Source: Paenibacillus kyungheensis (GTDB taxonomy: Bacteria; Bacillota; Bacilli; Paenibacillales; Paenibacillaceae). Taken from it: 64,000 nt of DNA. Position 1 is the first letter of the stretch. Each line of letters starts with the position of its first letter. The notes beneath the pieces are model-generated. The model did no database searches, was not told where the DNA came from, and worked only from the letters and a program-made list of their open reading frames with translations. The stretch covers positions 3,324,001 through 3,388,000 of the forward strand of contig NZ_CP117416.1 of assembly GCF_028606985.1 (NCBI RefSeq). The letters are read 5' to 3'. Position numbers and translations under genes: made by a program. Positions 23,955-52,518 of the stretch are shown piece by piece.

Positions 23955-24114
23955 TGTATCCCTCTCCCATCCAGACTATACTGTCGGCTCCGGATTCTCA
24001 CCAGATCCACCGTCTATGGTTATTACACATAGCCGGGTCACGGACTTAGAGATCACATATTATCTTGATCTCAACACCGCCGGTGGGGAATTTCGCCCCG
24101 CCCCGAAGGATAAA
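23955..24114 (-). ncRNA. FMN riboswitch (RFN element)
   Basis: On the minus strand the leader opens with TATCCTTCGGGGC and runs through the conserved blocks GGCGGT, CCCGGCTATGTG, GACGGTGGATCTGGTGAGA and GACAGTATAGTCTGGATGGG to AGAGGGA, the sequence signature of the RFN element. It binds FMN and shuts down the riboflavin operon when flavin is plentiful. It precedes ribD with an intervening terminator. Confidence 0.97.
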
Positions 24115-30887: not shown

Positions 30888-30982
30888 ACATTATCCTTCT
30901 TTCAAGCACTTAACTTACTTATTCACTACCTGCCAACCCCACCATAAATCTGGCTTTTGTTTCATGACTGCGGTCTTCCTCA

Positions 30983-31110
30983 GCGGAGCGAAAGGAAAAA
31001 ATCATTCTGAAAGTCGCCTTTGAAGTGGAATCCCGACTGTATCGCAGTCTAATCAAGGGATTCCATTTCAACAGCGACGGTAAGAATCATTTTTTCTTGT
31101 AGCGGTCTCC
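30983..31110 (+). repeat. Long covarying hairpin element, copy A
   Basis: Nested stems on the plus strand: AAAAAATCATTCT (30996-31008) with AGAATCATTTTTT (31083-31095, one mismatch); GTCGC (31013-31017) with GCGAC (31074-31078); TTGAA with TTCAA; GGAATCCC with GGGATTCC; and an apical GACTG/CAGTC hairpin followed by an unpaired AATCA. The same architecture and the same unpaired segments occur at 52347-52518 on the other strand with different stem sequences. A shared tail CCACCCACC follows. No open frame. It lies between the carboxypeptidase and punA genes, reading in the direction of the former. Confidence 0.8.
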
Positions 31111-31147
31111 ACCCACCCCAGTCATCTTCAAAACCACCCCAAAACCA

Positions 31148-31972
31148 TTACATTTGAGGAATAATCGCCAATACCAATTTCAAGAACTGATCACGTACAC
31201 GATCAGCTGTCTCCATTACTTCATCATGAGATAACGGTTGATCCAAAATACCTGCTGCCATATTCGTAATACAAGAAATACCTAATACTTCGATCCCTGC
31301 ATGACGCGCTACAATCGTTTCTGACACCGTAGACATTCCTACAGCATCTGCACCTAATGTACGCAACATCACGATCTCAGCAGGCGTTTCGTACGTTGGA
31401 CCAAGCAATCCAGCATACACACCCTCTTGAACTTTCAAGCCTTGTTGTGCTGCTGTTTCTTTGAATACCGCACGTAGACGACGGCTATACGCTTCAGACA
31501 TATCAGGGAAACGTACACCTAGTGCAGAATCGTTCGGTCCGATCAATGGGTTACGACCTGTCATATTCAAATGATCGCTCAGTACCATCAGATCTCCTGG
31601 CTCGTAAGAAGTATTTACGCCACCCGCTGCATTGGTAACCAGCAATGTAGAGATTCCCAATTCCTTCATAACACGTACAGGGAATGCTGTTACTTCCGGG
31701 CCGTATCCTTCATACATATGGAAGCGACCTTTCATCATCACTACAGGGCGACCTTGAATCGTACCTAGTAACAATTCGCCTTCATGACCTTCTACTGTCG
31801 ATACAGGGAAATGTGGAATATGATGATAATCAATCGCTACGCTATCTTCGATCAAATCTGCTAAAATACCTAAGCCTGAACCCAAAATCAATCCGATTTC
31901 TGGTTTGATATCACTTTGACTACGAATATAAGCAGCTGCTTCTTGAATCGTTGCTTGTGTAATAGTTGTCAT
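31148..31972 (-). CDS. punA: Purine-nucleoside phosphorylase
   Basis: Cleaves purine nucleosides with phosphate to base and ribose 1-phosphate in nucleoside salvage. Trimeric PNP-family motifs: IGLILGSGLGILA near the N-terminus, HEGELLLG, RFHMYEGY, TNAAGGVNTSYEPGDLM and the specificity region GLLGPTYETPAEI. The 274-residue length fits PunA/PupG. Downstream partner of deoB (73-nt gap), as in Bacillus subtilis drm-pupG. In that species dacF and the spoIIA operon come next; they are not here. Confidence 0.96.
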   Translation of the reverse strand: MTTITQATIQEAAAYIRSQSDIKPEIGLILGSGLGILADLIEDSVAIDYHHIPHFPVSTVEGHEGELLLGTIQGRPVVMMKGRFHMYEGYGPEVTAFPVRVMKELGISTLLVTNAAGGVNTSYEPGDLMVLSDHLNMTGRNPLIGPNDSALGVRFPDMSEAYSRRLRAVFKETAAQQGLKVQEGVYAGLLGPTYETPAEIVMLRTLGADAVGMSTVSETIVARHAGIEVLGISCITNMAAGILDQPLSHDEVMETADRVRDQFLKLVLAIIPQM

Positions 31973-50421: not shown

Positions 50422-52314
50422 CTATTGCTTATGCGGCAATCCGATCTTGATCTCTGTTCCTTCGCCGGGATGACTTTCGATGTGGACTTGTACAGCAGAA
50501 CCATAGATCATTTGCAAACGACGGATCACATTCGTCAAACCAATTCCTGAAATGGCAGGCACAGAGGGTGAACTTGACTTGTATTCTGCTGAGCTATGAT
50601 CGGATGATGCCTGTTCACTCGTGTTGTCTGTATCTGCTGTTGCTACATCTCTTTTGGATAAGTCCGTATGTGTAGATGCTGATAATGATAAAGGATGTTG
50701 AGCGTATTCTATGTTTGGTTTCTGAATCTGATCTATCACTTGTTGTACCGCTTGCAAACGTTCTTCATTCATCCCTTCGCCACTATCACGAATACTGATC
50801 CATAGCACATTATCTTTCAACCAGGATTGTATCCACAAAATACCGCCGTACTTCGACAATCCATGATGGTAAGCGTTCTCAACCAGCGGTTGAACAATAA
50901 ATCGAGGAACATAGATACCGACCGTATCTGTAGCTAATTCCATTTCTACATGTACTTTAACTTCGCGCTGAAAATCCACTAGACGAATATAATGTTGTAC
51001 CGTTTCTATTTCTTCTTGTAGTGGAATACACTCATTGCCCCGATTCACTGTCATGCGTAGCAATGAAGATAGTGAGCCTAGTAACACTGCCGCTTCTTCA
51101 GAACCTTTTAACAATAGATCCATCCGGATCGCACCCAAAATATTAAAAAGAAAATGAGGATTGATCTGTGCTTGAAGCATTTCTAGTTCTGCTTTGCGAC
51201 GTTCGCTTTGTTCGCATTCTATCTGAATAATCATCTCTTCAACTCGATCTAACATCGCATCTAGCGATTGACCGAGTACACCTGCTTCATCTTCTCCACG
51301 AATACCGGAACGAATACTGAGATTATCGTTATCAATTTTGCGAACAACTCCTGTTAATTTGACAATCGGACGGGTCAGACGTGCAATCCCTAGTACCAGC
51401 AAAATCAGAAAAACGATCAACACCGCCATCTGTACAAAATTAGTCACTTGATAGATACGATTAATCTTTTCAGCGGCAACGCCATAAGGAACTAATCCTT
51501 CCAATCTCCATCCAGCGACAGACATGTCTCTTTCCAGTTCAAGAATACCTTCTCGTTGTTGATATAGCTGTGTAAAATCACTACCGATCCATGCGTTATT
51601 CGGATGAGAAATAATCTTGTTATCTGCTCCGACGATCATCATCTGAATCGTAGAATTATATTTATTGAGTACAGCTTTGAGTTGTTCTTCATTCATACTT
51701 ACGATCACATAACCATAGACTTTACCTGATAATAAGCGTAAACTGCGAGCTACCGAAAGCATATACGTTGGTGGTTCTTCTTTCGATTGCAGATACGATG
51801 GATGAAGTAAAAAGTTCAGCTTCCCACCTGTTACAAATGAACCGCTATTGGTCAGTTGATGGATATCGAGCTTATCAAGCTGGTATTGATCCGACTGGAA
51901 ATTGCTATATACCATTTTACCATTTCCTGTCCAGACAGAAATATAGACTTGTTCGCCTGCATAAGAAAGATTGTCTAGCTTTTTGGTAACATCAGATGCT
52001 TCGGTCTGTCCTACATAGATTCCGCTACGTCGATATTTGAGTGCTAGATTGAGTTCTTGATCCAAGTACAGATAATTGGAAATATAGATCAGCCGATTGA
52101 TCTGATCGGTTAAGTACAGATTCGCTGCATCCAATGAATTGCCTGCATTTTGCAAAACGGTTTCTTTCATCATGTCTTTGGTTAGCCAGCTAGATAACAT
52201 TGTGCCTGCGCCGATCGTTAACAGTAAGCAACAGGCTACGGAGGCAATTAGCTTGCCCCTTAGTGAAGTGTGCCAGATTCTCCTCCATGCCTTCATGCTC
52301 ATATGACCTTTCAT
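50422..52314 (-). CDS. YesM-type sensor histidine kinase with a low-complexity insert in the ATPase domain
   Basis: Membrane sensor for the locus. Membrane segments at about 22-44 and 295-313 enclose a Cache-like extracellular domain (YVIVSMNEEQLKAVL, ADNKIISHPN). HAMP about 313-365, phospho-acceptor His387 in NPHFLFNIL, N-box QPLVENAYHHG (Asn480) and DSGEGM (Asp510). Odd feature: about 50 Ser/Thr/Asp-rich residues (533-586) are inserted in the ATP-lid region before GIGLTN. Length 630, against roughly 580 usual. The true start is one of three nearby ATGs. It lies 3' of the hairpin element and binding-protein gene. Confidence 0.93.
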   Translation of the reverse strand: MKGHMSMKAWRRIWHTSLRGKLIASVACCLLLTIGAGTMLSSWLTKDMMKETVLQNAGNSLDAANLYLTDQINRLIYISNYLYLDQELNLALKYRRSGIYVGQTEASDVTKKLDNLSYAGEQVYISVWTGNGKMVYSNFQSDQYQLDKLDIHQLTNSGSFVTGGKLNFLLHPSYLQSKEEPPTYMLSVARSLRLLSGKVYGYVIVSMNEEQLKAVLNKYNSTIQMMIVGADNKIISHPNNAWIGSDFTQLYQQREGILELERDMSVAGWRLEGLVPYGVAAEKINRIYQVTNFVQMAVLIVFLILLVLGIARLTRPIVKLTGVVRKIDNDNLSIRSGIRGEDEAGVLGQSLDAMLDRVEEMIIQIECEQSERRKAELEMLQAQINPHFLFNILGAIRMDLLLKGSEEAAVLLGSLSSLLRMTVNRGNECIPLQEEIETVQHYIRLVDFQREVKVHVEMELATDTVGIYVPRFIVQPLVENAYHHGLSKYGGILWIQSWLKDNVLWISIRDSGEGMNEERLQAVQQVIDQIQKPNIEYAQHPLSLSASTHTDLSKRDVATADTDNTSEQASSDHSSAEYKSSSPSVPAISGIGLTNVIRRLQMIYGSAVQVHIESHPGEGTEIKIGLPHKQ

Positions 52315-52346: not shown

Positions 52347-52518
52347 GTGGGAGCGTGAAGGAGGTTGTCCGCTTCGGTGAAGGAATTGTCCTTGTCATCG
52401 CTGTTGAACAAAAATACCTTGATTGACCTGAACGGTCGGTATTTTTATTCAAAGGCGACCGCTTCGCTTTTTCAGGACAATTTCCTTTACCTCCGCTCCG
52501 ACGCTCCTTAGCTCCCAC
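52347..52518 (-). repeat. Long covarying hairpin element, copy B
   Basis: Same architecture as 30983-31110 but on the minus strand. Plus-strand coordinates of pairs: GTGGGAGC (52347-52354) with GCTCCCAC (52511-52518); GGAATTGTCC (52382-52391) with GGACAATTTCC (52475-52485); ATCGC with GCGAC; TTGAA with TTCAA; AAAAATACC with GGTATTTTT (52438-52446); apical GACC with GGTC around TGAAC. Unpaired segments match copy A (AATCAAGG and CAACAGCGA on the minus strand) while stems differ. It lies between the binding-protein gene and the kinase gene and reads in their direction. Confidence 0.8.

Follow-up and report, generated by a model that had tools for sequence, protein, structure and literature searches.

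A family of covarying intergenic hairpins in Paenibacillales, perhaps kept as DNA at gene borders

Results

Two hairpins and their neighbours

Two long hairpins, A and B, lie between genes in the window, by which we mean the whole 64,000-nucleotide stretch of Paenibacillus kyungheensis DNA under analysis. An original prediction placed A at 30983–31110 on the plus strand and B at 52347–52518 on the minus strand, and our own reading of both stretches confirmed that hairpins lie there, that the pieces GTCGCCTTTGAA, AATCAAGG and TTCAACAGCGA occur in each, and that there is a tail rich in CCACCCACC. Two details needed correction. A had been drawn too short: an outer, copy-specific stem closes the hairpin, which runs from 30965 to 31124. 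And the outer stems, said to pair in spite of their different sequences, do pair, but with one mismatch in A and a one-base bulge in B (where the arm is GGAAATTGTCC/GGACAATTCC). Folded as RNA, the two stretches have predicted energies of -69.5 kcal/mol (A) and -82.3 kcal/mol (B). Their parts, with P0 for the outermost stem and P4 for the apical one, are listed here with the neighbouring genes and one other structured element of the window:

23955..24114, minus: FMN riboswitch, 108.3 bits (Rfam, window)
30965..31124, plus: copy A, whole hairpin including the outer stem; 114.3 bits (covariance model), and P0 stem test
30965..30970 with 31119..31124, plus: outer stem of A, TGACTG with CAGTCA
30982..31008, plus: A, conserved foot AGCGGAG, then the 5' arm of outer stem P1
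about 31083..31099, plus: A, 3' arm of P1, with the foot AGCGG at 31101..31105
31009..31021, plus: A, internal loop GAAA, short helix TCGC, conserved CTTT loop
31074..31077, plus: A, GCGA, partner of the TCGC helix
31022..31069, plus: A, inner stem P3, apical stem P4 and bulge
31035..31039 with 31045..31049, plus: A, P4, GACTG/CAGTC
31050..31056, plus: A, conserved one-sided bulge TAATCAA
31106..31119, plus: A, C-rich tail TCTCCACCCACCCC
31148..31972, minus: 274-aa open reading frame beside A and antisense to it; A lies 38 nt past its stop
50422..52314, minus: 630-aa open reading frame on the same strand as B, its start ~33 nt past B's 3' end (our gene-calling script chose a later start)
52347..52518, minus: copy B, whole hairpin including the outer stem; 127.0 bits (covariance model), and P0 test
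52518..52511 with 52354..52347, minus: outer stem of B, GTGGGAGC with GCTCCCAC
52461..52467, minus: B, mini-hairpin GCGAAGC (C-GNA-G loop), an optional insert of the family that is missing from A

The gene beside A (31148..31972) we take to be purine nucleoside phosphorylase-like; by Pfam, PNP_UDP_1 is present in 2 of 58 neighbours of the family.

One family, many copies

How many such hairpins does the genome hold? By blastn, A finds 22 places and B finds 11, each counting itself, and A shares 93% identity over 82 bases with a copy at 3967484. The original prediction had named further copies as its check, and a covariance model (R1) built from an alignment of 22 copies finds them: 71 matches at E<=1 in the 5.26-Mb genome (best 3.4e-38), 12 of them antisense double hits of the same hairpins, which leaves at least 59 copies—a lower bound, because 150 of 1501 candidates were scored. 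That A and B belong to a single family of intergenic repeats is near certain.

The element is a rod-like hairpin of stacked stems (P0-P1-P2-P3-P4), with a core of ~140 bp that reaches up to ~170–200 bp when the outer stem is included. Its stems are mostly free in sequence yet paired, and its joints are fixed: AGCGGAG/GCAGCG; GAAA with the optional GCGAAGC mini-hairpin; TCGCCTTT/AACAGCGA; and the AATCAA bulge. Read from 5' to 3', it begins with the copy-specific outer stem P0 and the foot AGCGGAG opposite GCAGCG; then come stem P1 (~15–18 bp, its 5' arm purine-rich), the joint GAAA opposite GACA-like bases (where many copies add a mini-hairpin such as GCGAAGC), a short and almost invariant helix TCGC/GCGA, the joint CTTT opposite AACA, stem P3 (~13 bp), the one-sided bulge AATCAA and apical stem P4. 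The joints and the bulge are the parts most conserved across genera.

Some copies are built differently. A longer arm of the AGCTACAAGCTTTC...GAAAGCTACTTCGTAAGC type recurs in place of the mini-hairpin (our loci L237, L244, L242 at 1896-2072, and L141), and in P. nuruki (L368, near 14465) it takes the place of the inner hairpin. This arm may be another repeat, nested within the family's own. Elsewhere in this genome (L240, 1187500-1192300), two copies with a shortened inner hairpin stand on either side of one lipoprotein-like gene, which suggests a local duplication.

The original prediction had also claimed that the stems change in compensation, and counts of double changes against shuffles bear this out. 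RNAalifold reports double changes in 28 of 41 pairs among 22 copies. In an alignment of 58 copies (the weakest of the 59 falling below threshold), 94.6% of cells pair, 35 of the 41 pairs show a double change, and 524 cells are altered on both sides, against 149 when shuffled (0/500) and at most 96 in slid controls. The 35 matches from other genera (32 distinct rows) pair in 95.0% of cells, again with a double change in 35 of 41 pairs, and hold 259 double-changed cells against 72 shuffled (0/500), the relatives' rows being partly non-independent (orthologues, tandem copies, single elements under two locus ids). Alignments fitted to R1 and to the second model described below (R2) favour the modelled structure by construction. 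A test of P0 is independent of that bias, because P0 lies outside the model's paired part: own flanks pair better than swapped flanks in 47 of the 59 copies of this genome and, among chosen copies elsewhere, in 17 of 17 from the genus and 24 of 24 from other genera (some of the latter orthologous to one another). The covariation is genuine, and the outer stem is real.

Spread across genomes

The relatives were the other place to look, and the covariance-model search that had been suggested found the family in all 11 same-genus genomes, at 11 to 88 R1 matches each with antisense doubles included; in the whole of that search, 16 of 20 genomes had R1 matches, the window's own among them. The second model, R2, was built from 58 rows covering the genus and two other taxonomic families. 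At E<=1e-6, with 16 candidates scored per genome, it matched 157 of 198 genomes searched within the order; the matches fall in 28 of 43 genera. In a draw from the whole class, 27 of 299 genomes matched, all 27 in the window's own taxonomic family (10 candidates scored per genome), and 272 had no match, of which the 20 listed all belong to other families. As far as the sequences searched go, then, the family is confined to Paenibacillales, the order name that we take to hold for the genomes that carry it.

The family also turns up in plasmid records of two further named Paenibacillus. None of 50,697 phage records gave a match, and for that reason we rejected a phage origin. Nine viral contigs (L382-L390) contain a strict version of the pattern. 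A loose pattern scan of genome contigs returned 119 stretches, mostly chance occurrences in unrelated phyla as judged by their titles; two of them were put to the model, with a match in P. nuruki (L141) and none in P. lupini (L157). Tandem direct copies stand in four loci of other genomes (L278 in G060, L275 in G072, L099 in G016 and L087 in G012), where there are three at 181-184 bp, two at 184 bp, two at 172 bp and two 317 bp apart.

Is the family one already known? The original prediction, which did not recognise it and called it a candidate undescribed element, held up: neither A nor B matches any of 4227 Rfam models at the gathering threshold, and seven copies searched against Rfam at E<=10 gave five chance-like matches. 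These were to one streptococcal sRNA and four microRNA families, and none came near its cut-off. With no credible Rfam match, a known RNA family was rejected. We found no description of such a repeat in Paenibacillus in the open-licence literature that we searched.

Where the copies sit

All 59 copies are intergenic by our own gene calls, which come from a codon-score script that leaves start codons and some gap lengths approximate. They sit asymmetrically: the 3' gap has a median of 57 nt and the 5' gap of 356, and the 5' gap is the larger in 51 of the 56 copies with both neighbours called, as it is in most copies chosen elsewhere (15 of 18 in the genus, 19 of 26 in other genera). The gene on the 3' side is read in the sense of the element in 37 cases and antisense in 21 (one is unknown); between same-direction genes the count is 30 sense to 10 antisense. 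Since the 3' gaps are short, many sense copies must, we infer, be transcribed into leaders.

Several intergenic regions hold an inverted pair whose 5' ends face each other, among them the spacers between what we take from protein sequence to be purC and purS, and purF and purM (SAICAR synthetase is among the neighbours by Pfam). Upstream of purM, at least one element at E<=0.01 occurs in 15 of 16 genus genomes and an inverted pair in 12 of 16, the weakest counted match having 24.9 bits; there is none in G002, and in P. nuruki the contig ends, so that one side is visible. In this genome, the purF-purM spacer (L227, 746800-751000) has a long run of AGAGCAA-type short tandem repeats between its inverted elements.

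Do the neighbours have anything in common? Sorted by Pfam, the 58 genes on the 3' side belong to 84 families with at most three members each, counted without a background set, and on that count we rejected a common neighbour function; transport proteins recur. The RlaP family (RNA repair polymerase beta) appears twice among the neighbours, and two 262-aa genes that are nearly identical each have a broken-down copy 84-85 nt ahead of them (L238 and L243, at ~1151301 and ~3106612).

The elements are co-oriented with replication 41:18, a count confounded with gene direction, and where gene direction is neutral the figure is 11:5 (p = 0.21). The orientation assumes an origin near base 1, where a small S4-like open reading frame and recF-like and gyrB-like genes presumably mark it, and a terminus in mid-genome.

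Base composition around the 59 copies is skewed as well. On the element's strand, C exceeds G from ~-400 to +50 nt: the skew is -0.42 in the stretch 50-100 nt upstream and reaches -0.63 immediately downstream. Sense and antisense copies look the same in the upstream part. A C-rich tail of ~50 nt follows the element, weaker in other genera. One could imagine from this a transcription-termination unit, in which the C-rich, G-poor zone loads Rho and the hairpin makes the polymerase pause. The upstream zone is strong here but fades in the genus and is missing from other genera, where mainly the first 25 nt downstream keep the skew, and so it is not general; sense copies, moreover, would silence the gene they precede. 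Nor is there an intrinsic terminator, which we rejected because the tail is C-rich and not a run of T (C 0.35 and T 0.24 in the first 25 nt after the element). We think a termination unit very improbable. Promoters, finally, are not enriched in the spacers (44 toward the element against 50.5 shuffled, and 36 away against 51.6), on which ground we rejected an own promoter or small RNA gene.

Inheritance and turnover

All 14 P. nuruki (G006) loci compared, which make 12 distinct regions, fall at element sites of this genome, a favourable sample because the loci were picked from high-scoring matches. In the reverse test, eight elements of this genome have their region at least partly in 320 kb of G006 contig 85, and seven of the eight are present: six matched (one of these, at 42 bits, with its inside replaced), and one lies just beyond the end of the stretch. 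The eighth has suffered an internal deletion in P. nuruki that left the feet of the stem. Most sites checked are thus common to the two genomes, which belong to closely related species. Over 14 of 16 aligned orthologue pairs (two with large indels being left out), the core is identical at 1746 of 1910 positions, the 5' flank at 927 of 1323 and the 3' flank at 709 of 845.

Over larger distances the sites turn over. A is present in P. nuruki; in 10 further genomes of the genus the model finds no copy next to the phosphorylase gene. B is absent from G001 and G004. The A and B sites of more distant species have no element, their flanks being too diverged to show an empty site. A and B are either young or often lost.

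Might the family then be a non-autonomous mobile element, MITE-like or transposed as a single strand, relic or still moving, its hairpin being the signal for a transposase? It is high in copy, dispersed and only intergenic; it occurs in tandem, with a period of ~172-205 bp, in other species; judged by eye, it has subtypes in which copies at distant sites share inner hairpins and differ in their outer stems; it is co-oriented with replication, with the confounding noted above; and a Y1 transposase was found in 7 of 13 tested carriers of the family against 0 of 5 non-carriers. Yet the Y1 family (PF01797) has 0 matches in this genome (G000) and in five others of the genus (G001, G005, G009, G010 and G011), carriers all, the ends have no direct repeat (5.75 for own ends against 5.72 for swapped, p = 0.99), and the sites are common to P. 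nuruki, where the single difference examined closely is the internal deletion with its stem feet kept. Shared sites, that deletion and the lack of a target duplication led us to reject a fresh transposon. As an account of what the element is, we regard the mobile one as a serious contender but an unlikely one; a mobile origin in the distant past is likely.

DNA or RNA?

In which molecule is the pairing kept? The original prediction took compensatory change as the mark of selection on RNA or on single-stranded DNA. The evidence leans to the DNA part of that statement. Selection on RNA does not follow from compensatory change in this case: a constraint at the level of DNA, or a correction of one arm by the other as the DNA replicates, fits better.

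The argument turns on the pairs that are not Watson-Crick. A fold selected in RNA tolerates G·U and does not tolerate A·C. In the 58 copies, G·T to A·C stands at 61:34, and in the 35 matches from other genera at 23:21. Aligned with MAFFT and folded with RNAalifold, 30 chosen copies (14 from this genome and 16 from relatives) give 25:16, and 24 from other genera give 28:14; the same pipeline gives 44:3 for 30 SAM riboswitches of the same genus and, for 30 purine riboswitches, 31:6 (p = 9e-5 and 6e-6 when the controls are pooled and compared with each of the two element sets). If the count is limited to pairs that alternate between G-C and A-T, the family has 28:23 (1023 Watson-Crick cells) and 13:19 (537), against 14:0 for SAM (103 cells) and 15:3 for the purine riboswitch (157 cells). 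A less strict control, with each SAM sequence self-folded, gave 230:116, and its changes were 230 double and 636 single.

The orthologues in P. nuruki speak to the same point. Starting from Watson-Crick pairs in 18 orthologue pairs, counted both ways and with 37 reference G·T pairs set aside, 52 double Watson-Crick changes equal all single changes (52), of which 17 lead to G·T, 20 to A·C and 15 elsewhere; there are 6 other doubles besides.

The loops of the mini-hairpin are mostly GNA (GAA, GGA, GTA, GCA) or GNNA with T or C in third place (GATA, GTTA, GGTA, GGCA, GTCA), and cGNAg and cGNNAg are unusually stable loops in DNA. The GNRA tetraloops of RNA were never found among the readable mini-hairpins of the 136 rows looked at, where four rows had AAA or AGA loops and the others had no insert or one that our script could not read.

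Some preference for one strand does exist: the 61:34 excess in this genome is one. On the element's own strand, antisense copies have 23:10 and sense copies 38:24. Antisense copies thus keep the same strand preference as sense copies, and this is not what a role inside the neighbour's mRNA would produce. Nor do antisense copies score lower: their median is 117.4 bits and that of sense copies 109.2 (p = 0.11).

These results bear on a second way to read the family, as a cis-acting structured RNA that works in mRNA 5' leaders when sense and at 3' ends when antisense, for instance as a decay barrier or processing signal that segments operons. The 30:10 bias between same-direction genes points that way, as do the 3' end that often lies no more than 60 nt from a start codon, the several copies between operon-like genes (the inverted pairs of purC-purS and purF-purM, for example) and the very stable RNA folds. 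Covariation of the kind seen in structured cis-regulatory RNAs is present, but a tolerance of G·U well above A·C is not, wobbles being rare and hardly above A·C at switching pairs. Against this reading too are the antisense copies, as conserved as the sense ones and with the same strand preference, the spacers without promoter enrichment, and the 3'-side genes without a shared function on the Pfam count, itself made without a background set. The RNA reading, in transcript ends, is one of the main rivals, and we find it doubtful.

A third way to read the family would do without function altogether: a neutral quasi-palindrome, in which template switching during replication copies arm onto arm. 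Double Watson-Crick changes as frequent as single ones (52:52, against 230:636 in the self-folded SAM control) are what such copying would give, and single changes of all kinds without a preference for G·T are what template correction predicts. Yet the joints and the bulge, which correction would erase, are the most conserved parts across genera, and identity between species is 91% in the core and 70% in the 5' spacer. A purely neutral origin of the pattern seems to us quite improbable.

Our conclusion is that the constraint treats the two strands mostly alike, as one would expect of a cruciform or of arms that correct each other, and we hold with moderate confidence both to this and to DNA over RNA.

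Discussion

What is the family, and what might it be for? In our best reading, these are extragenic palindromes that form a new family in the Paenibacillales and are maintained at gene borders as a DNA hairpin or cruciform, and we would give that reading an even chance. The arms would be kept complementary at the level of DNA, as a cruciform or a folded single strand, with arm-to-arm correction during replication perhaps doing part of the work, and the fixed joints would offer a putative surface for recognition by a protein. By analogy with REP, BIME and ERIC palindromes, the element may mark where transcription units end, as a border signal of a topological or insulating kind. This border function, argued from likeness, is the weakest step of the explanation, and the 30:10 sense bias between same-direction genes is something that a purely topological role does not predict.

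One can go further—and we do so tentatively, thinking it improbable but worth stating—and imagine an order-wide structured-DNA code, in which each genome's dozens of hairpins would be recognised as folded shapes, at their fixed joints, by a dedicated and putative Paenibacillales protein, marking the borders of transcription units in either direction. Because the arms evolve in concert, the signal in such a code would be shape, not stem sequence.

How does the family compare with those already described? The ERIC (IRU) and RU repeats of enterobacteria are likewise imperfect palindromes of 100-170 bp, intergenic, dispersed and found inside operons, and the family resembles them in being dispersed, imperfectly palindromic and intergenic in 59 of 59 copies. 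Copies of ERIC and RU share sequence, however, and belong to another phylum, whereas here the stems vary and the joints are fixed, a separation that we draw from descriptions. REP, BIME and REPIN sequences are also extragenic palindromes at gene borders, in inverted pairs. REPs are 20-40 bp long, with a GTAG or CGTC tag and a RAYT partner, and the element here is a rod of 140-200 bp with the foot AGCGGAG/GCAGCG; since hairpin length, tag and Y1 (RAYT) transposase do not fit here, we rejected REP/RAYT membership. Closer in lineage, being an intergenic hairpin repeat of the Bacillota, is bcr1 of the Bacillus cereus group, which at ~155 bp is also close in size; it is described as mobile and conserved in sequence, and by that description it is unlike this family. 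The attC sites of integrons are, like this element, DNA hairpins that fold with stems free in sequence and with their unpaired bases conserved, but the arrays of cassettes that go with attC were not seen around this family. Riboswitches and other Rfam families share with it the covarying stems and conserved joints; its pairing, however, is not RNA-like, and it has no credible Rfam match. The family therefore stands outside REP/RAYT, all tested Rfam families and fresh MITEs, and its conservation is led by shape.

For Paenibacillales, this means that the order has an abundant and order-wide feature without an entry in the copy of Rfam that we searched. The case carries a warning as well. Strong covariation tends to be accepted as proof of RNA structure, and in this family the way in which the pairs change speaks for DNA. 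The family, present in dozens of copies per genome, supplies many natural replicates for separating structure from sequence, and, if the DNA reading is true, it would be a tractable system for the long-standing question of what extragenic palindromes do.
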